This document shows positions 6,982-42,024 of a DNA stretch of 64,000 nucleotides, piece after piece. The position numbers and the translations under genes are program-made. Every line of letters begins with the position of its first letter. Position 1 is the stretch's first letter. Source of the stretch: Thermomicrobiales bacterium (lineage in GTDB: Bacteria > Chloroflexota > Chloroflexia > Thermomicrobiales > CADCWN01); contig JAUJMV010000023.1 of the NCBI GenBank assembly GCA_030446685.1, positions 54,755 to 118,754 on the forward strand, read 5' to 3'. The notes under the pieces were generated by a model. The model was not told the origin of the DNA, ran no database searches, and worked only from the letters and a program-made list of their open reading frames with translations.

Positions 6982-8034
6982 GTGAGAGGCGTGGTGCCTC
7001 TCCAGGTTTGGTCGGCGCACGCAGTGAGGAGCGAGCCAGTGGCAGTGCGGGAGCGGTGCCGTCGTCGGCTGATCGACTTCGTCGGCGGTGTGTGGCAAGG
7101 CATCGCCACGCACCTCTGGCCGAGACCGCCCTCGGCGACGCACACGGCGGGCACGGGGGCGGATCTGCTGCGGAGCCGGTCACGGCTGCTCGCCGAGAAT
7201 GCCCTCCTGCGTCAGCAGCTGCTCGTGCTGCGCCGGAGGGTCAAGCGCCCGGCCCTGACCACGACGGATCGGGCGCTCCTGGTGGTGCTCACCGGCCGGG
7301 TCCGCGCCTGGCGACAGGCGCTGCGCATCGTCCGGCCCGCCACCCTGCTGCGCTGGCGCCGCGCCGGGCTCCGCGCGTTCTGGCGGTGTAAGTCGCGACC
7401 GGGACCGGGGCGCCCGCCGCTCCCGGCGGCGACCGTGGCCCTGATTCGGACGATGGCGGACGAGAACCCGCTCTGGGGTGCCGAGCGGATCCGCGGCGAG
7501 CTCGGCAAGCTCGGCCTCCGCGTGGCCAAGCGCACCATCCAGACCTCCCTGCGCGGGACCCACGCCCCGCGCCCGCGTGGGCAGACCTGGGCGACCTTCC
7601 TGCGGAACCACGCCCACGAGATCTGGACGTGCGACTTCCTCCCGGTGACGGAGCTCCTCTTCCGGCCGCTGTCCGCGTTCTTCGTCATCGAGCTGGCCAC
7701 GCGGCGGGTCGTCCATTTCGGGGTGACCCGACACCCGACGGACGCCGGGGTCGCCCAGCCGCCGCGCGAGGCCACCCCGTTCGACCAGCGCCCGCGGTAC
7801 CTCATCTGCGATAACGACGGCAAGTTCGGGGTCGCCTTCGCGCAACTCGCTGCAGCCAGCGGCATCACGATTCTGCGCGCGCCCTATCGCGCGCCGCGGG
7901 CGAATGCCGTCTGCGAACGCTTCCTCGGCAGCGTGCGGCGCGAATGCCTGGACCACCTGCTCATCCTCGGCGAGCGGCAGCTGTCTCGCATGCTCCGCGA
8001 GTATGTCGCGTACTTCAATCGGGACCGGCCACAC
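6982..8034 (+). mobile_element. Integrase-core (rve) transposase, N-terminal and catalytic part; C-terminus separated by IS630 insertion
   Basis: LLAENALLRQQLLVLRRRVKRP, WTCDFLPV, DNDGKFG, NAVCERFLGSVRRECLDHLLIL, YFNRDRPH. Confidence 0.85.
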
Positions 8035-9325
8035 TAGTCCGTCGCCACTGTGGATTGCGCGGGGTAGAGCCGCGCCAGAGCGCGTGCGGGCGTCGCTGGC
8101 GCGCTGAAGCGCCAGGCCACGGTCGCCTTGGCGGCGTTGCGGTCCTGCTCCCAGGCGTCGGGCGACCTCGCGCGCGAGCGTCTCCACGTCGCCGAGCCAA
8201 CTGCCGCGAGCGGTCGAGGCACTGGCCGCCGAGGACGCTCCTCGACCTCCGCCTGGTTGAGCCACGAGGCGTGCTTCGGGGTGTAGATCGGTGGAACTCC
8301 AGCCGCCGCAGGATGCGGCGAGGGGCCTCCGCCGGGGCGAACGACCCGTTGGGTACAGCGCCGCCGGGGTGTGGGTGTTGAGGTTGTCCAGCACCACCCG
8401 CACCCGCCGCGCGTGGGGATAGCCCCGCCTCGTCCTCGTCCACCAGGCGGCGTATCTGCTCCTCGATCAACTCTTTTTCGGCCGCGGTGCGCCGGGCGGC
8501 CTTACGGCGACCCGGCGGCGGCCCGCCTTGGGCTCGAAGGCGATGAACAGGTTGGCCGTCCCCTCGCGCTTGTACTCGTAGTCGTACCGCGCCCCGCGCG
8601 CGCGGCGCGGCGGCTGCGCGGCGCGCTCCGACACCAGTTGGTGCCCCGGCGCGATCGGCGCGCTCGTCGAAGCGCACCACCGGCTCGGCCGGGTCAGCCC
8701 CGGCTCCGCGTACAGGTCGAGCACATCCTCCAGCCGCGCCGCCACGTGGCTCCGCGCCCACCGTCGGCAGCGCGCCACTGCTTGCGCTGCCAGGGCTTCA
8801 CCGCCCCCTTGAGCGCCCGCCGCACCGTCTCGTCGCTGACGGGCGCCGCCACGCCGCACGCCACCAGCTTGTCCGCGAGGAGTTGCATCGTCCAGCGCTT
8901 CCGGCCGGGCGGCGGGGCGGTGCAGGCCAGCGCCACCAGGTGCGCCTCCTGCAAACTGCCGTCCAGCGCCCGCGCCGCGCCGCTGGGCCTTTCGCGGGCC
9001 GCTCGCCCAGCGCCGCCTCCAGCCCCCTCGACGCAGCGGCGGCGCATCCCGCCAATTGCCTCCACCGGGTCCACGCTCAGCCGCGCGCTTAACCAGTTCG
9101 GCTGGGCGACCACGTCGCTGTCCCCGCGTCCACCGCCAGCAGCGCCAGCGCGCGCTTCAGCCGCCGCACCTTCGCCGACCCCCGACGCGTCAGCGCCTCC
9201 AGGCTGTCCTGAACGCCCGCCGCCATCAGCGCCACCACGTACTTCTTCGCCATCGCCCACCTCGCCCTCGGCAACGCCCCTACCGCCGGGGCGGACACCT
9301 GGGCAAACCACCGTGGTGACGGATA
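8035..9325 (-). mobile_element. IS630-family element, transposase frameshifted
   Basis: Orphan transposase frames (MAKKYVVALMAAGVQDSLEALTRRGSAKVRRLKRALALLAVDAG from 9253; SDETVRRALKGAVKPWQRKQW; YDYEYKREGTANLFIAFEPKAGRR). Ends TA-GTCCGTCGCCACTGTGGATTGC and (reverse complement) TA-TCCGTCACCACGGTGGTTTGC form TIRs with TA at both borders. Confidence 0.8.
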
Positions 9326-30700: not shown

Positions 30701-30894
30701 CGTCGTCCTCCCTCCGCGCGCGATAGCGCACGCCTGTTGTCCAGCCACCACTCGTCCCGCACCGGCGCCGGCGTCCCCGCGACCCCCTGCGCCGCCGGCA
30801 CGCGTCCGCCTCGGTCGTGCCCTGCGCGGCGTCGATCCCTGAACCGATGCCGGCGCCCCATCCAGGGTTACTCTCGCCGCCCGAGAAACAGCCT

Positions 30895-30965
30895 CTCCAC
30901 ATCGGCGGATTAGATTATTCGATATTAGATGTTGGAATTATCATAGCATGCCTGTCAAGAGGGGG
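30895..30965. promoter_or_regulatory. AT-rich divergent regulatory region between solute-binding protein and LacI regulator
   Basis: GATTATTCGATATTAGATGTTGGAATTATCATAGCATGCCTGTCAAG; strong local AT contrast, TTGACA on the minus strand, imperfect inverted half-sites GATTATTC...GAATTATC. Confidence 0.4.
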
Positions 30966-31038
30966 CTGGCCCGCGCCGGGATCGAGTATGATGTCGTCGC
31001 GCCAGGGAGTGCCGACGGCGAGATGGAAGGACGGGGGC

Positions 31039-32124
31039 ATGGTCAGGCCGCGGGCGGTCACGAGCTACGACGTCGCCAAGCACGCGGGGGTGTCCCAGGC
31101 GACGGTCTCGGCCGTGCTGAACAACAAGCACGGCACGATCCGCGTCTCGGAGGAGACGCGCCGGCGCGTGCTCGCGGCGGTGGAGACGCTGCAGTACTCC
31201 CCGAATCCTCTCGCGCAGGGCTTACGCCGCCGCCGGAGCGGGATCATCGGCTTCGTCCCGCTGGGGTTCTACCGCAAGCGCCACGAGCGGCCACTGCCGA
31301 CCATGCAACTGCTCAACCTCCAGATCGCGCGCGCGGCGATCCAGCACGGCTACCACGTCCTGGAGGCCACCGCCGAATCGGCCGCCTCGCGCGGCAGCGA
31401 GGAACTCGTCCGCTTCCTGCTGGACCAGCGGGTCGACGGGGTGATCGTCGACCGGCCCGAGACCGCCGCCGAGGTCCGGCGGCTCGTCGAGCGCGGCCTG
31501 CCGGTCGTGCAACTGCTGGCCCCGCACTTCGACTGTCCGACGCCGGCCATCACGGTGGACATGACGCCGGGCACCGACGCCGCGATCGACCACCTGGTCG
31601 GGCAGGGACACCGGCGGATTGCCTTCCTCGGCCACCACGGCGCCCGCCCCCACGATCGCGCCCGGTTGGACTGCTTCCGCGCCGCGCTCGCCCGCCACCG
31701 GCTCGCGCTGCCGGAGGAGTACGTGCGGCTGGGGGAGACGACCGTGGTGACGGAGAGCTGCGCCCTCGCCACGGCCCTGCTCGCGCTGCCGGAGCGGCCG
31801 ACCGCGATCCTGGCCGCGACCGAGGGGCTGGCCCTCGGCGCGTTGCGGGCGCTCTACGCGGCGCGGGTCCATGTGCCGGAGGCGATGAGCCTGGTCAGCA
31901 GCAACGACGCCCTGGCCGTCCACCTCTACCCGCCGCTGACCAGCATCACCCTGCCGTTCGAGGAGATCGCGCACCATGCCGTCGCGCTGCTCACCGCGCA
32001 GCTCGACGGCGATGTCCCGGCATCCGGCGAGCCGACCCGGATCGTCCTCCCCACGCAGTTCACCATCCGCGAGTCGACGCGGCCGCCGCTCGGCGCCCGA
32101 GACGAGGTTCAGGCCGGGCGGTAG
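31039..32124 (+). CDS. LacI family transcriptional regulator
   Basis: VTSYDVAKHAGVSQATVSAVLNNKHGTIRVSEETRRRVLAAVETLQYSPNPLAQGLR HTH; periplasmic-binding-like sensor domain. Confidence 0.94.
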   Translation: MVRPRAVTSYDVAKHAGVSQATVSAVLNNKHGTIRVSEETRRRVLAAVETLQYSPNPLAQGLRRRRSGIIGFVPLGFYRKRHERPLPTMQLLNLQIARAAIQHGYHVLEATAESAASRGSEELVRFLLDQRVDGVIVDRPETAAEVRRLVERGLPVVQLLAPHFDCPTPAITVDMTPGTDAAIDHLVGQGHRRIAFLGHHGARPHDRARLDCFRAALARHRLALPEEYVRLGETTVVTESCALATALLALPERPTAILAATEGLALGALRALYAARVHVPEAMSLVSSNDALAVHLYPPLTSITLPFEEIAHHAVALLTAQLDGDVPASGEPTRIVLPTQFTIRESTRPPLGARDEVQAGR

Positions 32125-32295: not shown

Positions 32296-33810
32296 TCAGC
32301 CGTCCAGGGGTGGGGAGAAGGGGGTCTCCGTATTCCGCCCGGTCGCCGGGTCGAAATAGAGCGGCGCGGGGTGGCCGCCAGCGGTGCGGATCGCCCAGTC
32401 GAGGAGCCGGTCGCGCAGCCGCCCGCGCACGGCGGCGTACGCCGGGTCGCGCGCCCGGTTCGTCAGCTCCCACGGGTCGGCCCCGAGGTCGTACAGCTCG
32501 TCGGTCTCGTCGGCCGGGTCGTAGACGTACTTGTACTGCCCCATCCGCACCATCCGCGGGTGGCCCTCGGCCTCGCGCCAGCGCAGCAGGGGGAGCGGCC
32601 CCGGCCACGGCCCCGCGAGCAACCGGGGCAGATCCGCCAGCCGCAGCCGGGGGCCACCCGCGCCGTACTCCGCGAACACCGCGTCGCGCGGCGGGTCGTC
32701 CCCGATGCCGGGGAGCGGGCGCCCGTCGTGGCCCGCCGGCACCGGCACGCCCGCGAGACCGAGGCAGGTCGGCAGGACGTCGAGCAGGCTGACGAGGTGG
32801 GGCTCCACCGCGCCTTCCGGCACGCGACCGGGCCACGACAGGAGCAGCGGCACGCGGGTCAGGCAGTCGTAGAACGCGCCCGACTTCACCGCGGCGCGGT
32901 GCTCGCCCGCGTAGTCGCCGTGATCGGAGCAGAAGACGACGATCGTGTCCTCGGTCAGCCCGCGCCGGTCGAGCGCGGCGAGGATCCGCCCCACCGCGTC
33001 GTCCACGAAGCGGATCATCCCGTAGTAGACGCTCAGCGTGAGGCGGATCTGGGCCTCGCTGAGGCGGTCGGAGCCGAACAGCCGACGGAAGACGCGCGTG
33101 CGCTCCATCGCCGCGTCGGCCTCGCCGTCGCGCCACGGGGGCAGCGTCAGACGCTCCGGCGGGTGCAGCGCGGCGTACGGCAGCGGGCACTGGTACGGCT
33201 CGTGCGGGTCGGGGAACGAGACCCACGCGCAGAAGGGCCGGTCGCCGGTCTGCGCCTCCAGGAAGCGCACCGCGCGCCGCGCCAGGATGGCCGTGGGACA
33301 GGCTTCCGCCGGGTAGGGGTTGATGCGCGGCCGCCCGTACACGGCCGGGTCGATGCCGGGCGCGTCCCCTTCCAGCCCCGGTGCGCCGGAACGGATCCAG
33401 CGCACCGCCGCCGCCTCCTCCTCGCTCGCGGTGTCGTCCGGCCCCTGGTGCGAGAAGACGTAGCGGTGCGCGAACAGCGCCTGGTCGGCGGGCCGGAAGC
33501 AGTGGTCCTTGCCGAACAGGGCGAGCGTGTACCCCGCCTCGTGCAGCCCGCGCGCGAAGTGGTGTTCCTCCGGCGGCATGAGGATTTCGTTGGTGCGCGC
33601 CCCGTGGCGGTGCGGGTAGCGCCCGGTCCAGAAGGAGACGCGCGCCGGCACGCACAGCGGGTGCGGGGTGTAGCACTGGTCGTAGCGCACGCCGCGCGCG
33701 GCCAGGCGTTCCAGCGCGGGCGTCGGCACGTCGGGGTTGCCGTACAGCCGGATCGCGGTCGCCTTCTGCTGGTCGGTCATCAGGACGAGGATGTTCGGCC
33801 GCTTCGCCAT
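32296..33810 (-). CDS. Sulfatase, Cys type
   Basis: MAKRPNILVLMTDQQKATAIRLYGNPDVPTPALERLAARG; LCVPARVSFWTGRYPHRHG; FCSDHGDYAGEH. Confidence 0.93.
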   Translation of the reverse strand: MAKRPNILVLMTDQQKATAIRLYGNPDVPTPALERLAARGVRYDQCYTPHPLCVPARVSFWTGRYPHRHGARTNEILMPPEEHHFARGLHEAGYTLALFGKDHCFRPADQALFAHRYVFSHQGPDDTASEEEAAAVRWIRSGAPGLEGDAPGIDPAVYGRPRINPYPAEACPTAILARRAVRFLEAQTGDRPFCAWVSFPDPHEPYQCPLPYAALHPPERLTLPPWRDGEADAAMERTRVFRRLFGSDRLSEAQIRLTLSVYYGMIRFVDDAVGRILAALDRRGLTEDTIVVFCSDHGDYAGEHRAAVKSGAFYDCLTRVPLLLSWPGRVPEGAVEPHLVSLLDVLPTCLGLAGVPVPAGHDGRPLPGIGDDPPRDAVFAEYGAGGPRLRLADLPRLLAGPWPGPLPLLRWREAEGHPRMVRMGQYKYVYDPADETDELYDLGADPWELTNRARDPAYAAVRGRLRDRLLDWAIRTAGGHPAPLYFDPATGRNTETPFSPPLDG

Positions 33811-33814
33811 CGGA

Positions 33815-35158
33815 TCAGCGCTCCTCTCCTACGGCCGCCGGCCGGATCGCCGGCGCGCCCCCCGCCGGTCGCTCCCGTGTCACCTCGGCGAGCCAGGCCC
33901 GCGCGGCGGCCGCCAGCTCCGCGACGATGTCGGGGTGCCGGTCCCGCAGGTTGATCCGCTCGCCCGGATCCTGGCCGAGATCGGCCAGGTGGACGGGGTC
34001 GGCGGCCGGGCGGCCGAAGTCGAGCTTGCCGTCGAGGACCAGCTTCCAACGACCCTCGCGCGCCGCCAGTTGCCCGGCGTACTCCCAGAAGACGCGCCGG
34101 TGCGGGCTCGGCGCGCCCTCCCTTACCGTCGGCAGCAGGTCGCGGCCGTCCAGCCCCTCCGCCGGTTCGGCGCCGGCCAGCGCCAGGAAGGTGGGCACGA
34201 TGTCCATCATCACGCCCACCTCGTCGCGGACCTGCCCGGCCGGGATGCGCGCCGGGTAACTGAGGATGGCCGGCTCGCGGATGCCGCCCTCGAACAGGCT
34301 CGCCTTGTGGCCGCGGAAGTGGCCGGCGCTGCCGCCGTAGTAGCGATCCTCCCTGCCGTCGAGCCAGTTGCGCGACTCGCTGGACGGGCCGTTGTCGCTG
34401 GAGAAGAAGATGACGGTGTCGTCGAGCTTGCCGGCGCGCCGCAGCGCGTCCACGATCGCCCCGACGCCGTCGTCCAGCGCGGCGATCATCGCCGCCATGA
34501 TCCGGCGATCGGGCGGCAGGCCGGGGAAGCGGTCGAGGTATTCCCGCGGCGCGTGCATCGGGTAGTGGGGCGCGCTGTACGGCACGTAGAGGAAGAAGGG
34601 CGCGCCCGCGTGCCGCTCGATGAACGCCACCGCCCGCTCGGTGATCAGCTCGGTCAGGTAGCGCCCGTTCGCCCAGACCTCCTCGCCGTCCCGCCAGAGG
34701 TCGTGGACCGGGTTGACGCCCCCGGCCTGGCCCCAGTAGAAGATGTGCGAGTAGTAGTCCACGCAGCCGGCCAGGAAGCCGAAGAACTCGTCGAAGCCGT
34801 GGGCGTTCGGGCCGTGCGCCGGGGCCGTGCCCAGGTGCCACTTGCCGCAGAGGCCCGTCGCGTAGCCCCGCTCCTTGAGGCGGCGCGCCAGCGTCCGCTC
34901 GTCCGCCGGCAGGCCGGCGCCGCCGCGCCTGCCGCCGAGGATCGCGCCGACGCCGGCGCGCTGCGGGTAGCGCCCGGTCAGCAGCGCGGCGCGCGACGGC
35001 GAGCAGACCGGTGAGTTCGAGTACCAGTCGGTGAAGCGGACGCCCCGCGCCGCGAGCGCGTCCAGGTGCGGGGTCTTGACGGCGTCCGAGCCGTAGCAGC
35101 CGAGGTCGCCGTAGCCGAGGTCGTCGGCGTAGATGACGATGAAGTTCGGCGCGCCCAT
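33815..35158 (-). CDS. Sulfatase (arylsulfatase-like), Cys type
   Basis: MGAPNFIVIYADDLGYGDLGCYG; VCSPSRAALLTGRYPQRAG; KWHLG; FFSSDNGP. Confidence 0.95.
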   Translation of the reverse strand: MGAPNFIVIYADDLGYGDLGCYGSDAVKTPHLDALAARGVRFTDWYSNSPVCSPSRAALLTGRYPQRAGVGAILGGRRGGAGLPADERTLARRLKERGYATGLCGKWHLGTAPAHGPNAHGFDEFFGFLAGCVDYYSHIFYWGQAGGVNPVHDLWRDGEEVWANGRYLTELITERAVAFIERHAGAPFFLYVPYSAPHYPMHAPREYLDRFPGLPPDRRIMAAMIAALDDGVGAIVDALRRAGKLDDTVIFFSSDNGPSSESRNWLDGREDRYYGGSAGHFRGHKASLFEGGIREPAILSYPARIPAGQVRDEVGVMMDIVPTFLALAGAEPAEGLDGRDLLPTVREGAPSPHRRVFWEYAGQLAAREGRWKLVLDGKLDFGRPAADPVHLADLGQDPGERINLRDRHPDIVAELAAAARAWLAEVTRERPAGGAPAIRPAAVGEER

Positions 35159-35292
35159 CCGGTCCACCTCCCGCTCGCCCGCGCCCCCGCGACCCACCTC
35201 GTGGGATCCTCGCCGCCCGGCGCTCCGCTCCCGAAGGCGGCGGGAGGGGGCCAGGGGTGGGGGCGCCCACTACCACTTACCCGAGTGCGGCC

Positions 35293-36765
35293 TCAGTACC
35301 GCGCGACGCGCGCCGGCCCCGGGTCGGCGGCCAGCATCGTGGCATCGAACGCGCGCTTCAGCAAGGCGCACTTCCGGTCGGCGCTGCCGGGATCCTCCCA
35401 GAGGTTGCGGAACTCGTGCGGGTCGTCGGCCAGGTCGTAGAGCTCGCCGGCCGGGTGGCCGTGGTAGACCGCGAGCTTGTGGCGACCGTCGAAGAGCATC
35501 GTCGCCCGGCTGGCGCCGGGGAGGTTCACCGCGTCGTGATACTCGCAGCGGACGACGTCGCGGTGCCGCGCGGGATCGGCCCGCCCGGTCAGGATCGGCA
35601 GCAGCGACCGGCCCTGCATCCGTCCCGGCGCCGGCAGTCCGGCCAGGTCGAGCAGCGTCGGCGCGAGGTCCACCAGCTCGACCAGGGCGTCGGCGCGCAG
35701 CCCCGCGCGGACGTGGCCGGGCCAGGACCAGATCAGCGGCACATGGACCAGCCCCTCGTAGAAGCGGCAGCCCTTCAGCCGCAGCCCGTGATCCCCCAGC
35801 ATCTCGCCGTGGTCGCTCATGAAGATGACGACGGTGTCCTCGCGCTGGCCGGTCGCCTCCAGGGCGGCGAGGATGCGCCCCACCTGCGCGTCGATCAGTT
35901 CGATCTGCGCGTAGTAGGCCGCGACCATCCGGCGCGCGTCGTAGGCGTCGGGCGGCTCCGGCGCCGTCTGGAAGTCGACCGCCGCCAGGGCGCGCTGCTG
36001 CTCCAGGTCGGACGGGGCGAAGCGCGGCGGCGGCATGGCGTCGGGGTCCATCCGCGCCAGGTAGTCGGGCGGCGGGTCGAAGGGCGGGTGGGGATCGAAG
36101 GGGTTGACACTGATCAACCAGGGGCCGTCGCGCCGCTCCGACAGGAAGGCGATCGCCTCGTCGGCGCACCAGGTGGTCTGGTGGTGGCGCGCGGCGATGC
36201 CGGCGCGGTACAGCCCCGGCCGGTGGTAGCGCGCCACCAGTTGCCCGGCGCCGAGGTCGGCCGGCGTCCAGCCGGCGGGCGTCTCGGCCCCATAGGCGGC
36301 TTCCCACGCGACGCCCCGGTCGCGCAGCCAGCGCTGATAGGCGTGCGCCGCGGTCGGCCAGCCCGGCTCGGGGTCGGGGTGGTGGCTCCAGTGGAAGACG
36401 CGGTAGCCGTCGTCGGGGCGGGCCTCGACCCGGCCGTGGGCGGCGGAGAGGTGGAGCTTGCCGACCAGCCCGCAGTCGTAGCCGGCGTCCGCCAGGAGTC
36501 GGGTGACCAGCGGCACGCCGGGCGGGAACCCGGCGTTGCCGTTGCGGTGGAGGTGGATCGCGCCGGGGTAGCAGCCGGTCAGGAAGCTGGCGCGGCTGGG
36601 GGTGCAGATCGGGCTCTGGCAGTAGGCATTGGTGAACGCCACCCCCTCGGCGACCAGCCGGTCGAGGTGCGGCGTGCGGATGTGCGGGTTGCCCAGCGCG
36701 CCGATCGTGTCGGAACGCTGCTGGTCGGTGCAGATCCAGAGGACGTTCGGCCGCGCGGCGGGCAT
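35293..36765 (-). CDS. Sulfatase, Cys type
   Basis: MPAARPNVLWICTDQQRSDTIGALGNPHIRTPHLDRL; ICTPSRASFLTGCYPG; FMSDHGEMLGDHG. Confidence 0.95.
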   Translation of the reverse strand: MPAARPNVLWICTDQQRSDTIGALGNPHIRTPHLDRLVAEGVAFTNAYCQSPICTPSRASFLTGCYPGAIHLHRNGNAGFPPGVPLVTRLLADAGYDCGLVGKLHLSAAHGRVEARPDDGYRVFHWSHHPDPEPGWPTAAHAYQRWLRDRGVAWEAAYGAETPAGWTPADLGAGQLVARYHRPGLYRAGIAARHHQTTWCADEAIAFLSERRDGPWLISVNPFDPHPPFDPPPDYLARMDPDAMPPPRFAPSDLEQQRALAAVDFQTAPEPPDAYDARRMVAAYYAQIELIDAQVGRILAALEATGQREDTVVIFMSDHGEMLGDHGLRLKGCRFYEGLVHVPLIWSWPGHVRAGLRADALVELVDLAPTLLDLAGLPAPGRMQGRSLLPILTGRADPARHRDVVRCEYHDAVNLPGASRATMLFDGRHKLAVYHGHPAGELYDLADDPHEFRNLWEDPGSADRKCALLKRAFDATMLAADPGPARVARY

Positions 36766-36838
36766 GGCTCCTCCTCGGTCGCGCCACCCGGTGCGGGGAC
36801 GGCCCGCGCGCCCACGGCGGCGCGGCGGTCGCGCGGCG

Positions 36839-38770
36839 CTACTGCCCCTTGAGGGCCTCCTCGTACTCCCGGCGGATCTGGTCGCCGCCGCGGCTGCGCC
36901 AGTCGCGGATGTAGGCGTCGAGGCCGCTCAGCGGCTCGCGCCCGGTGACGAAGGCGGCGAGCCGGTCGTTGCCCAACTGCGTCAGCTCGCTGCCCTTGGC
37001 CACTTCGGTCGGCGAGAAGAGCCCCTCGACCGGGTTGCCGACGCCGATCGCGAGCAGCTCCCGGTAGAGGCCCTGCATGGCCGGCGCGAGGTTCGGCTCC
37101 TCCGCATAGTAGAAGACCGGCGGGTTGTTGCTGAGGTTGGGCAGGTCGCCGATCTCCCGCGTGCCCAGCTCGGTCCGCCCGCGCGTGCCGTCGGGGCGCA
37201 GGGTGTGGTGGACCCCCTCCAGCCCGTACTGCTTGAAGATCCACTCCTCGCTGCCGAAGGGCGCGGCGTACCAGTCGAGGACGCGCAGCAACTCCTTGAC
37301 CCGCTCGCGGTCCCGCCCCACCCGGCTGGGGATCGCCGCGAAACCGCTGAAGCCCGACCCGGTGTGGGCGACCCCCTTGCCGCCGTCGTGGCCGGGCGGG
37401 GGCAGGCCGATCACGTCCGCGGCCGGGTTGACCAGCCGCGCCCCCGCGCGCCTGCCGGTCACCGCGGTGAAGGCCCCGTGGAAGCCGGCGAACTGGCCGG
37501 CGTCGAAGCCGGTGCGCGACTGCGCGACGGTCATCGTCGGGGTCTCCGGGTGATAGGCGCCCGCCTCCCACACGCCGCGGGCGAAGGCGACCGCCGCCTT
37601 GTGTTCCGCCGTCTCGATCGTGTTGGTCAGGCTGCCGTCGGGGTTGCGCCGCCAGCCGTTGGGCGCGCGGAACATCTGCTGCATGAAGCCGAAGCTGAAC
37701 TGGTTCGCCGCCTGGCCGAGGCCGTAGGTGTCCGCGCGGCCGTTGCCGTCCGGGTCGCCCTTGGTCACCGCGACCAGCAGCTGGAGCATCTCGGCCGCGT
37801 TCCGCGGCTGGGTCATCCCGACTTTCTCCATCCAGTCCCGGCGGAAGACGAGGACGGTGCCGCTGAGGGTGGGCCGGGGGACGCCGTAGATCTTCTTGTC
37901 GATCGCCACGTTCTTCCACAGTTGGGGCGGGAAGGCGGCGAGGTTGGGGTACTCCTTGAGCGCGTCGCCGGTCAGGTAAGGGGTCAGGTCGGTGAAGGCC
38001 CCCTGCTGGAGCGTCCGGTTCTGCGCGGCCCCGCGCGGATCGGTCGGCAGCAGCCAGCAGAGATCGGGGAACTCGCCGCCGGCGGTGAGGGTCGCGAATT
38101 TCTCCCCCCAGGACGAGGTCGGCGCCCAGGTCGGCTCGATCGTCGCGCCGACCCGCCGCTCCAGCTCCTGCCAGTAACGGTTCTCGGCGCGCCCCGGCAC
38201 CGGCGCCGTCTCCTGGATCTGGAAGGTGGTCACCCGCCCGCCCCCGGCGGGCGCGGCGGCGACCGACTTGAAGGGGATTGGGGGCTTCAGGTAGGCGTCC
38301 GGCACGTTCGGGTCCCCGCCGGGGATCGTGCCGTCCACAGCGACCGGACTGCCGGCCGCCGTCGCGCGCGCCCCGCCCGCGCGCGTCGTCGTCGCCGTCG
38401 CGCGCGCGGCCCCGGTCGTCACCGACGCGGTCGTCGTCGTTGCCCGCGCCGCGGGCGTTGTGCCGGTCGCCGGCAGACTCACCGCCCCGCTCGTCGCGGC
38501 CGGGGTGCTCCCGCCGCCGGTCGCCGGCGTGCTGCTCGCGCCGCCGCAGGCGGCCAGCGCGGCGACGCCCGCCATGCCGAGCGCCGCGCGCAGCGCCGCG
38601 CGGCGGCTGTAGGTGCGGGGCGACGGCGTCTCGCGCCGGGCATCCTGCCGATCCGCCGATCCCGTCCCGCTCTCACCCGCGCCCATGGCTGTGCCCCTCC
38701 TGTACCGCCGCAAGGCCGGGCCTCCCATACGGCGACTGCGCACGGTCATCCCTCCGGCCCCGCCGGCCAC
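36839..38770 (-). CDS. Extracellular solute-binding protein (LipO-type lipoprotein); true start may lie downstream, near 38685
   Basis: SRRAALRAALGMAGVAALAACGG lipobox; NRYWQELERRVGATIEPTWAPTSSWGEKFATL; DWRSRGGDQIRREYEEALKGQ*. Confidence 0.88.
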   Translation of the reverse strand: MAGGAGGMTVRSRRMGGPALRRYRRGTAMGAGESGTGSADRQDARRETPSPRTYSRRAALRAALGMAGVAALAACGGASSTPATGGGSTPAATSGAVSLPATGTTPAARATTTTASVTTGAARATATTTRAGGARATAAGSPVAVDGTIPGGDPNVPDAYLKPPIPFKSVAAAPAGGGRVTTFQIQETAPVPGRAENRYWQELERRVGATIEPTWAPTSSWGEKFATLTAGGEFPDLCWLLPTDPRGAAQNRTLQQGAFTDLTPYLTGDALKEYPNLAAFPPQLWKNVAIDKKIYGVPRPTLSGTVLVFRRDWMEKVGMTQPRNAAEMLQLLVAVTKGDPDGNGRADTYGLGQAANQFSFGFMQQMFRAPNGWRRNPDGSLTNTIETAEHKAAVAFARGVWEAGAYHPETPTMTVAQSRTGFDAGQFAGFHGAFTAVTGRRAGARLVNPAADVIGLPPPGHDGGKGVAHTGSGFSGFAAIPSRVGRDRERVKELLRVLDWYAAPFGSEEWIFKQYGLEGVHHTLRPDGTRGRTELGTREIGDLPNLSNNPPVFYYAEEPNLAPAMQGLYRELLAIGVGNPVEGLFSPTEVAKGSELTQLGNDRLAAFVTGREPLSGLDAYIRDWRSRGGDQIRREYEEALKGQ

Positions 38771-38804
38771 TGCGGCAGGCCGTCATGGTCCGGCGGGGCC
38801 GTCG

Positions 38805-39537
38805 CTACGAGAGTCTTCCTCCCGCGGGGTGCGCCGCCTGGACCTCGCGCACGACCCCGGCGGTGTAGCGCACATGGTCCCGCATCGCCACCGCCGCGTC
38901 GTCCGCCGCCCCGGCCGCGATCGCCTCGGCGATGCGCCGATGCTGGTCCACCGCGACCGCCAGCGATCCGGGCTGCCGGGCGATCAACTCGACCACCGCG
39001 TGCTGCATCTCGCGCACCGCATCCAACGCCACGCTGAGGTACGGGTTGCCGGCCGCCTCGAGGATGGCGGCGTGGAAAACCTGGTCGGCGACCGCGAAGG
39101 CCGCGAAGTTGCCCCCGCCACGCGCCGCCGTCTCGGTGTCCGCCGCCGTCTGGCGGATACCCGCCAACTGGTCCGACGAACGGCGCTCTGTCGCCAACCG
39201 GACGGCCTGCGTTTCGAGCCCTTCCCGAAAGGTGAAGAGGTGCTCCCACCGACCGCTCGTCCGGGGTGACCGAGAGGGTCAGCGCGCGGGAGACGACCGG
39301 GACGGGGTTGTGGCGGACGTAGATGCCGCTCCCCTGCCGGGCCTCGATCAGCCCCATCGCCCCCAGGACGCGCATCGCGTCCCGCACGGTGGCGCGGCTG
39401 ACCCCGAACGCGCGCCCCAACTCGCGCTCGGTCGGCAGCTTCTGCCCGTGGCCGAACTCCCCCCGCAGGATGCCGTCCTGGATCTGCTGGACGATCTGCT
39501 CGTAGCTCCGGCTCACGGTGACCGCCGCGAATGGCAT
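38805..39537 (-). CDS. GntR family regulator, FadR/FCD subfamily; frameshift near 39250
   Basis: SYEQIVQQIQDGILRGEFGHGQKLPTERELGRAFGVSRATVRDAMRVLGAMGLIEARQGSGIYV winged helix; FAVADQVFHAAILEAAGNPYLSVALDAVREMQHAVVELIA...VDQHRRIAEAI...HVRYTAGVV FCD domain in the adjacent frame. Confidence 0.88.
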
Positions 39538-39562
39538 AGGTTCCTTTCGCCAGGTTATCAAC

Positions 39563-39613
39563 TTGTCAGGCCAATCTCGGGACCATGATAGCTGGCGGGA
39601 GCGCCCTTGTCAA
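39563..39613 (-). promoter_or_regulatory. Sigma70-like promoter with FadR-type operator upstream of the GntR gene
   Basis: Minus strand: TTGACA (39613-39608), 17 nt, TATCAT (39590-39585), then TTGGCCTGACAA (39574-39563). Confidence 0.6.
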
Positions 39614-39771
39614 GGCGCGCTTGTACCACTCGCCCAACCGGCCCCGCCCGGGTCTGGCCGTTCGCACACCCGCCGCCCAGCGCGCGACGCCACCATGGCC
39701 GGGTAGGCGCCTCGTCCGAATGGGTCGCCACAGGCCCGAGGGCGCGCGGGAGGCGGCGATCGGCGGCGCCC

Positions 39772-41172
39772 TCAGCGCGCGGCGGGGGCGTCGGCGGCGG
39801 CGCTGCTGTCGGCACGGCAGCGGCGTTCGGTCGCCTCCGGGTCCTCGCCGAGTTCCGCCAGCAGGGTCGCGTGCAGCCGCCCGAGCAGCGCCGCGTACTC
39901 CGGACGCGCGGCGAGATTGGTGAACTCGCCGGGGTCGGCGTGGAGATCGTAGAGTTCCCGCTCCGGCGGGTGCCGGTCGCTGGCGGCAGTGTGGTAGACG
40001 TACTTGTACCGCCCGGCGCGCAGCATGGCGTAGCCCGACGCGATGTTGTGGGCGTAGTACTCGCTCACCGCCAGATCCTTCCAGTCATGCGCCGGGTTGT
40101 CCAGCCAGGGCAGCAGGGAGCCGCCGTCCCAGTCGTCCGGGACGGCGGCCCCACCCAGGTCGGCGATCGTCCGGACGAGGTCGACCAACGAGCAGGCCCC
40201 GACGCGTCGCTGCCCCCCGGCCCAGCGCGCGGGCCAGGAGACGATCAGCGGCACGCGGGCCGCGTGTTCGTAGACGCTGTTCTTCCACCACAGGCCGTGC
40301 TCCCCCAGATTCTCGCCGTGATCGGCGGTGTAGATCACCACCGTGTCGTCGGCCAGCGCGCTGCCGGCGAGCGCGTCGAGGACCTGGCCGACCTCGTGGT
40401 CGAGCCACTCGGTCAGGCCGTAGTAGAGCTCCCGCCCGCGCTGCACGATCGCGGGCGGGACGTCGAGCGTGCGGAAGCCGGCGCGCAGGTGCCGGTAGTT
40501 GCGGGGCTGCGCCGCCAGGTGCCCCTCCGGGATGACGGGCGGCGGGACCCGGCCCTCGTAGCGCCGCCAGTAGTCCTCGGGGACGATCAGCGGGAAGTGG
40601 GGCGCGAGGTAGCCGGCGAAGAGGAAGAACGGGCGCTCGTCGGGATCGCGGTTGCGCAGGAAGCTGACGACGCCGGCGGTGACGCCGCGGTCCTTCCGCA
40701 GCACCGGGCTGTCGTCGCCGGGGTGGAAGTCGTCGAAACGCTCGGACAGGCCGCCCGGCGAGGCGAAGTCGTCGGGCTCGCGCCGGGCGGTCCGGCCGTG
40801 CTTGGTGTGGTTGTTGTAGTTGCCGCCGATCTCGGTGAACCCGTAGCGGCGGTCGTGGGCGTAGTGCTGCTTGCCGCAGAGGAACGAGGCGTAGCCCGCC
40901 GCGTTCATGGCGCGCGGCAGCGACGGGTAGTCCGGGCGGGGCAGCTCGGCGTGGTTGTGCCAGGCGCCGATCCGGGAGATGTACTTGCCGGCGGTGAAGG
41001 AGAGGCGCGACGGCACGCAGAGGGGCGAGTTGCAGTACGCCCCCTCGAAGGTCACGCCGGCCCCGGCCAACCGGTCGAGGTTGGGGGTGCGGACGAGCGC
41101 GTTCCCGTAGGGGCCGGCGACGGCCGGGTCGTGCTCGTCGGCCATGATCACCAGGATGTTCGGCTGCCGCAT
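39772..41172 (-). CDS. Sulfatase, Cys type
   Basis: MRQPNILVIMADEHDPAVAGPYGNALVRTPNLDRLAGAG; LCVPSRLSFTAGKYISRIG; TADHGENLGEHG. Confidence 0.93.
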   Translation of the reverse strand: MRQPNILVIMADEHDPAVAGPYGNALVRTPNLDRLAGAGVTFEGAYCNSPLCVPSRLSFTAGKYISRIGAWHNHAELPRPDYPSLPRAMNAAGYASFLCGKQHYAHDRRYGFTEIGGNYNNHTKHGRTARREPDDFASPGGLSERFDDFHPGDDSPVLRKDRGVTAGVVSFLRNRDPDERPFFLFAGYLAPHFPLIVPEDYWRRYEGRVPPPVIPEGHLAAQPRNYRHLRAGFRTLDVPPAIVQRGRELYYGLTEWLDHEVGQVLDALAGSALADDTVVIYTADHGENLGEHGLWWKNSVYEHAARVPLIVSWPARWAGGQRRVGACSLVDLVRTIADLGGAAVPDDWDGGSLLPWLDNPAHDWKDLAVSEYYAHNIASGYAMLRAGRYKYVYHTAASDRHPPERELYDLHADPGEFTNLAARPEYAALLGRLHATLLAELGEDPEATERRCRADSSAAADAPAAR

Positions 41173-41237
41173 GGTCTGCCTCCTCAACGGCCGGGAGGGC
41201 CGGTTCCACCCCGATCGCGGCGGGCGGATGGGCCTAC

Positions 41238-41285
41238 TTGTCATACCAATCCGCGGATTGTATAGTGCCCCTGGCATGCTGTCAA
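41238..41285 (-). promoter_or_regulatory. Sigma70-like promoter with FadR-type operator and palindrome upstream of the sulfatase
   Basis: Minus strand: TTGACA (41285-41280), 17 nt, TACAAT (41262-41257), palindrome CAATCCGCGGATTG, then TTGGTATGACAA (41249-41238), whose complement TTGTCATACCA fits TNGTNNNACNA. Confidence 0.65.
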
Positions 41286-41351: not shown

Positions 41352-41585
41352 ATGAGCGCGATGCCGACGGCGGACGGGAGCATTCAGGCCATCCCCACCA
41401 TCCACGCCACGACGCGCTGGTCGCCGCCGCCCTGGGCGATCCTTCAGCGCGAGGTCTTCGACGCGCTCGACCGGGCCGCGCCCGCCTTCGTCGCGCGCTA
41501 CGCCCGCCCCGATGGCACGCTGATCTGGCGCGAGCAATGGCCGGGGATGGACGGCTCGGACGGCCCCTACGAGGGGTTCCTCCCG
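41352..41585 (+). pseudogene. N-terminal fragment of a large hypothetical protein, truncated by an IS remnant
   Basis: MSAMPTADGSIQAIPTIHATTRWSPPPWAILQREVFDALDRAAPAFVARYARPDGTLIWREQWPGMDGSDGPYEGF, then abrupt change into antisense transposase sequence. Confidence 0.6.
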
Positions 41586-42024
41586 CGCGGACGCGGTAGC
41601 CGCGCGTTCGCCCTGTACCGCTGGATCGTGCGCTTGCTCAGGCGAATGTTGAGCTTCAGCAGTTCCCCGCGGATGCGGTCGGCGCCCCACAGGCCGTTCT
41701 CGGTCGCCATCTGCTCGATCGGTGCGATCGTCTGTGCCGGGAGGGGGATGTGGCAGCCCGTCGCCGCACCTGCCGCCGCCAGACGAGCCGGAACCCCGCG
41801 CGATGCCAGCGCAGCACGGTGGCGGGCTGCGCGAGCAGGAGGGCGTTGGCCCGGGTAGGCAGTCGACCGGCAAGCAGGACGAGCACGCGGCGATCGGTGG
41901 GCGTGAACTGCGGCCGCGGCGCGGTCCGGCCGAGGACGATGAGCTGCTGGCGCAACAGCGCGTTCTCCAGCAACAACTCGGTCCTGCTCCGCGCCACGTC
42001 GCGCAGCGCCCGGGCGATCGGCAC
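41585..42024 (-). mobile_element. Integrase-core transposase N-terminal remnant
   Basis: MPIARALRDVARSRTELLLENALLRQQLIVLGRTAPRPQFTPTDRRVLVLLAG; other frame reads IAPIEQMATENGLWGADRIRGELLKLNIRLSKRTIQRYRANARLPRPRG; compare 6982-8034. Confidence 0.8.

Follow-up and report, generated by a model that had tools for sequence, protein, structure and literature searches.

Candidate operators of an FCD-GntR regulator before its own gene and a sulfatase gene in a Thermomicrobiales genome

Described FCD-GntR systems and the locus studied here

Operators of the FadR subfamily of GntR regulators follow the consensus TNGTNNNACNA, in the form in which PMC2230225 quotes Rigali 2002. In E. coli, the PdhR operator AATTGGTaagACCAATT is located at +11 to +27 and prevents effective polymerase binding (PMC10572922). 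In Corynebacterium glutamicum, GntR1 and GntR2 are paralogs that share operators, and their redundancy was shown experimentally; their FadR-type 15-bp sites are one to two positions away from TNGTNNNACNA (PMC2230225). UxuR, ExuR, LldR, and NanR are further FCD-GntR regulators, which govern the use of sugar acids and lactate.

The locus described here lies in the window, the whole 64-kb stretch of Thermomicrobiales DNA that was analysed and to which all plain positions refer. With PdhR it shares the left half-site ATTGGT, an operator just past the transcription start, and predicted autoregulation together with a neighbouring operon (PMC10572922); on the other hand, its right half-site is GACAA and not ACCAAT, its genes encode sulfatases and part of a transporter and not pyruvate dehydrogenase, and the helix-turn-helix (HTH) part of its regulator reaches 56 bits, whereas the PdhR equivalog cutoff is 330. 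As with GntR1 and GntR2, there are two paralogous GntR regulators, although those proteins regulate gluconate and glucose genes, and redundancy of the paralogs is only suggested here. Domain architecture and operator class are also those of UxuR, ExuR, LldR, and NanR, but the split halves of the window regulator fall far short of the cutoffs of all family-specific models (45-56 bits for the PdhR, LldR, UxuR, and NanR equivalogs versus NCBIfam cutoffs of 260-442). The proposed circuit is of a common type, that of PdhR- and FadR-like repressors, but its operator code and regulon have not been described before; our literature search found no paper linking an FCD-GntR regulator with sulfatase control. 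To our knowledge, few transcription factors of Thermomicrobiales have been characterised.

Two sigma70-like promoters on the minus strand, which an earlier note on this DNA had proposed, are present: TTGACA-N17-TATCAT (39613-39585; 11/12) before the GntR gene and TTGACA-N17-TACAAT (41285-41257; 11/12) before the sulfatase gene. ATTGG-NNN-GACAAGT lies 6-9 nt behind each of them. Candidate operator 1 (39554-39576, minus strand) reads GATTGGCCTGACAAGT and then TTGATAAC, with ATTGG starting 9 nt past the -10 hexamer; candidate operator 2 (41236-41251, minus strand) reads GATTGGTATGACAAGT, with ATTGG starting 6 nt past the -10, and is predicted to extend over about -1 to +15 of the sulfatase transcript. 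The candidate operators were found where the earlier note had placed them, just behind each -10 (39561-39576 and 41236-41251; plus-strand reading ACTTGTCA[GG/TA]CCAATC), and its comparison with the subfamily consensus holds as well: TTGTCATACCA at 41238-41248 matches TNGTNNNACNA exactly and TTGTCAGGCCA at 39563-39573 has one mismatch. What we add is an opposing promoter on the plus strand, TTGTCA-N17-TATAGT (41238-41266; 10/12), which belongs to a truncated divergent gene. The sulfatase operator includes the -35 hexamer of this promoter and is thus bidirectional. The 16.5 kb scanned contained three promoter-like sites (0.5 expected), all of which sit at the two operators. Since no terminator-like site was found in the leaders of the two genes, regulation by a terminator or leader was rejected. 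We consider it very probable that both sites serve a single FCD-GntR repressor of the FadR subfamily as operators; it would regulate its own gene and control the sulfatase/solute-binding-protein locus.

The regulator gene and its intact paralog

The regulator gene adjacent to operator 1 (38805-39537, minus strand) had been assigned to the FadR subfamily because of its FCD domain. Both expected domains were detected by Pfam, the N-terminal GntR winged helix (PF00392; 4.4e-22) and the C-terminal FCD domain (PF07729; 4.1e-20), but they lie in two different frames, whereas they are continuous in homologs. The HTH part spans 39537-39247, and the FCD part covers 39197-38805 with a short stretch upstream of it; in tblastn searches, the matches to homologs change between frame -2 and frame -3 near 39245 (39240-39250). 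This frameshift is either an assembly error or the mark of a broken gene. An intact paralog is encoded on the same contig, 48 kb away (G000:C52:46556-47275), with an HTH part 62% identical to that of the window regulator; the close similarity of the two also shows in 31 of 42 HTH residues that agree. Because the window regulator is frameshifted, the intact paralog may bind both window sites.

A stronger version of this idea is that the window operators are real but the window regulator gene is a pseudogene without function, which would leave control of all three operators in trans to the paralog (C52:46556-47275) alone. This is a variant of the main reading and compatible with it; we regard it as a serious possibility, though not the likelier state of affairs. 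The frameshift between HTH and FCD argues for it, as do the intactness of the paralog and the operator of the same type upstream of that gene, which is followed directly by a degenerate second copy (ATTGGTCTGACAAC ATTGGCCTGATAAG; L088 1501-1530 = G000:C52:46498-46527). On the other hand, an assembly error would fit the draft state of the genome, the good conservation of the FCD frame apart from the shift, and the intact promoter and ribosome-binding site.

Operator resemblance in the window and in relatives

Taken alone, the likeness of the two window sites is of modest significance. When the two 200-bp upstream regions were shuffled, 2 of 150 trials reached the observed level of identity, 14/16, and the window has 7 matches to the short consensus TNGTNNNACNA, or 106 with at most one mismatch; thus, the resemblance and the consensus fit are insufficient by themselves. 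A genome scan with the motif, which the earlier note had suggested, gave a divided result: the exact 16-mer ACTTGTCANNCCAATC has exactly two matches in the whole 7.04-Mb genome, both at the window sites, but the relaxed form (at most two mismatches) is at control level, with 8 matches versus 7, and therefore no wider regulon can be claimed. Among 199 other genomes, ACTTGTCANNCCAAT gave six scattered matches. The 14-bp palindrome CAATCCGCGGATTG that had been singled out at the sulfatase site is present at 41247-41260, but it is unremarkable; with eight perfect 14-bp palindromes in the window and no conservation of this one at the other five promoter-coupled sites described below, it was rejected as an additional signal.

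The stronger evidence comes from relatives; the queries were the window HTH part and an alignment built from four homologs. The regulator clade is clearly bounded and contains five genes: the window regulator, its own paralog, two genes in a Thermomicrobiales genome of the same order (MAG ACE_NR_CHLO10; G014), and one in G059; all other matches are far weaker. ATTGGYCNGACAA is found directly upstream of four of the five, the intact paralog included, while the upstream region of the fifth (G059) was found without the site. More specifically, ATTGGNNNGACAA lies upstream of the paralog and of both G014 homologs, whose HTH parts have 62%, 64%, and 60% identity, respectively. Upstream regions of 121 other FCD/GntR regulators yielded the clade motif in none and a one-mismatch form in 10. 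The latter belong to more distant FCD regulators (L017, L223, L224, L240, L241, L246, and others), and related operators may therefore reach beyond the clade. At the window regulator and in G014 C35, TGAYAA is repeated 8 bp further on.

The coupling of the motif to promoters is equally selective. Across six genomes, ATTGGNNNGACAA is found 27 times, and six of these matches are preceded by a sigma70-like promoter (9-11/12) ending 3-9 nt before the motif; promoter scores at the remaining 21 are 4-8 of 12, and none of 14 further one-mismatch matches has such a promoter. Of the six promoter-coupled sites, four belong to regulator genes (that of the window, its paralog, and the two in G014) and one to the window sulfatase; the sixth, G014:C3:15970, stands before a gene for 476 aa that is homologous to the divergent neighbour of the window sulfatase and is intact. 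Five of them contain TNGTNNNACNA exactly, and the site at the window regulator has one mismatch. The consensus over the promoter-coupled sites, ATTGGTCtGACAAc, fits the FadR-subfamily consensus in its quoted form. Because related regulator genes carry the same switch, this DNA switch is probably real. The proposal of autoregulation and sulfatase control by an FCD-GntR protein thus gains support from phylogenetic footprinting, with like-placed operators before the closest regulator homologs and before the divergent-gene homolog. Sulfatase orthologs were rejected as a footprint; the upstream regions of sulfatase homologs in relatives lack the operator, and the sulfatase operator was seen in the window genome only.

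These data also bear on the view that the window sites resemble each other by chance or through a recent small duplication, with no regulator bound. The shuffling result and the shortness of the FadR consensus are in its favor, but sequences flanking both sites are dissimilar beyond the hexamers, and two genomes have four more promoters with the motif at equal distance, each of them connected with the regulator or with the divergent-gene family; we consider this view very improbable. It is also very improbable that the sites serve an activator or another regulator such as the LacI-family protein at 30817-32124, which is encoded within the same cluster: the motif goes with the FCD-GntR clade and agrees with the FadR consensus, and its place behind the -10 is that of a repressor site.

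Proposed repression and neighbouring genes

With both window sites taken as operators of the FCD-GntR repressor, we infer binding, repression rather than activation, ligand, and operon as follows. A repressor dimer would bind ATTGGTCtGACAAc, which spans about -1 to +17 relative to the predicted start at either promoter. At the regulator promoter, the bound dimer would block RNA polymerase and produce autoregulation, probably including the downstream solute-binding-protein and sulfatase genes; at the other site, it would block the sulfatase promoter and cover the -35 of the opposing promoter, shutting both directions together. Release would follow when a ligand binds the FCD domain; this ligand is probably a sugar or a sugar acid. 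Repression with ligand release is the best inference given the operator position, the parallel with PdhR, and the fit to the FadR consensus, and the nature of the ligand is suggested by neighbouring ABC-transporter genes and by a mandelate-racemase-type enzyme in G014. It is conceivable, though we put it forward only tentatively, that Thermomicrobiales have a small regulon in which two paralogous FCD-GntR repressors with one operator code cross-regulate sulfatases, ABC transporter parts, and an (alpha/alpha)-barrel-like family, while the local repressor decays and its operators pass to the distant paralog. ATTGGTCtGACAAc offers a testable operator code for one regulator clade, and it is useful for annotation that a single circuit ties the sulfatases to the carbohydrate-enzyme-like family of the divergent gene.

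The gene behind operator 2 (39772-41172, minus strand) encodes an S1-type sulfatase of 466 aa (Pfam Sulfatase, PF00884, 1.6e-43; SGSH_C, 1.7e-21) with the formylglycine motif C-x-P-S-R (CVPSR), and is preceded by an RBS-like GAGGAGG at 41185-41179. Against the choline sulfatase model TIGR03417 it scores 270 bits, below the equivalog cutoff of 433. Directly downstream of the regulator are a solute-binding lipoprotein gene (36839-38770; Pfam SBP_bac_8) and three further sulfatase genes (32296-36765, comprising 35293-36765, 33815-35197, and 32296-33810), all on the minus strand. Since they share the strand of the regulator and no promoter-like site was found between it and these genes, the regulator promoter may drive all four, and we presume that they are on the regulator transcript. 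The four sulfatase genes of the window are clustered (32296-41172); the window genome has 36 sulfatase-like matched stretches.

The gene diverging from the sulfatase is a remnant of about 80 N-terminal codons (41352-41598, plus strand) with an RBS-like GGAAGGAG. It has 50% identity to the G014:C3 protein and 73% to a homolog in the window genome (G000:C52:47969-49126) that follows the paralog regulator at a distance of about 0.7 kb. This genome thus links a clade regulator with the divergent-gene family twice (in the window and at C52:46.5-49 kb), and over both genomes there are three loci at which clade members, operator, and divergent-gene family go together. The family has no match in Pfam or among PDB sequences. 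Its AlphaFold2 model, built from 10 sequences, is of medium confidence (pLDDT 78), and in Foldseek it comes closest to (alpha/alpha)-barrel sugar epimerases and to unsaturated glucuronyl hydrolases; with TM of about 0.4-0.5 and E above 0.001, these matches suggest only a fold class.

The divergent gene is truncated beside a decayed insertion-sequence fragment (41621-41827) that is 71% identical to part of a transposase-like gene (6982-8037, plus strand), and a C-terminal piece of the same family is found at 6970-6398 (minus strand), beside that transposase-like element. The N- and C-terminal pieces of this family of about 470 aa therefore lie 34 kb apart in opposite orientation, each by insertion-sequence material; an element-mediated inversion would account for this arrangement, and so would a misassembly. 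The interval that separates the paralog regulator from the divergent-family homolog holds lipoprotein and ABC permease remnants (L077 4364-4900), which suggest a decayed transporter operon.
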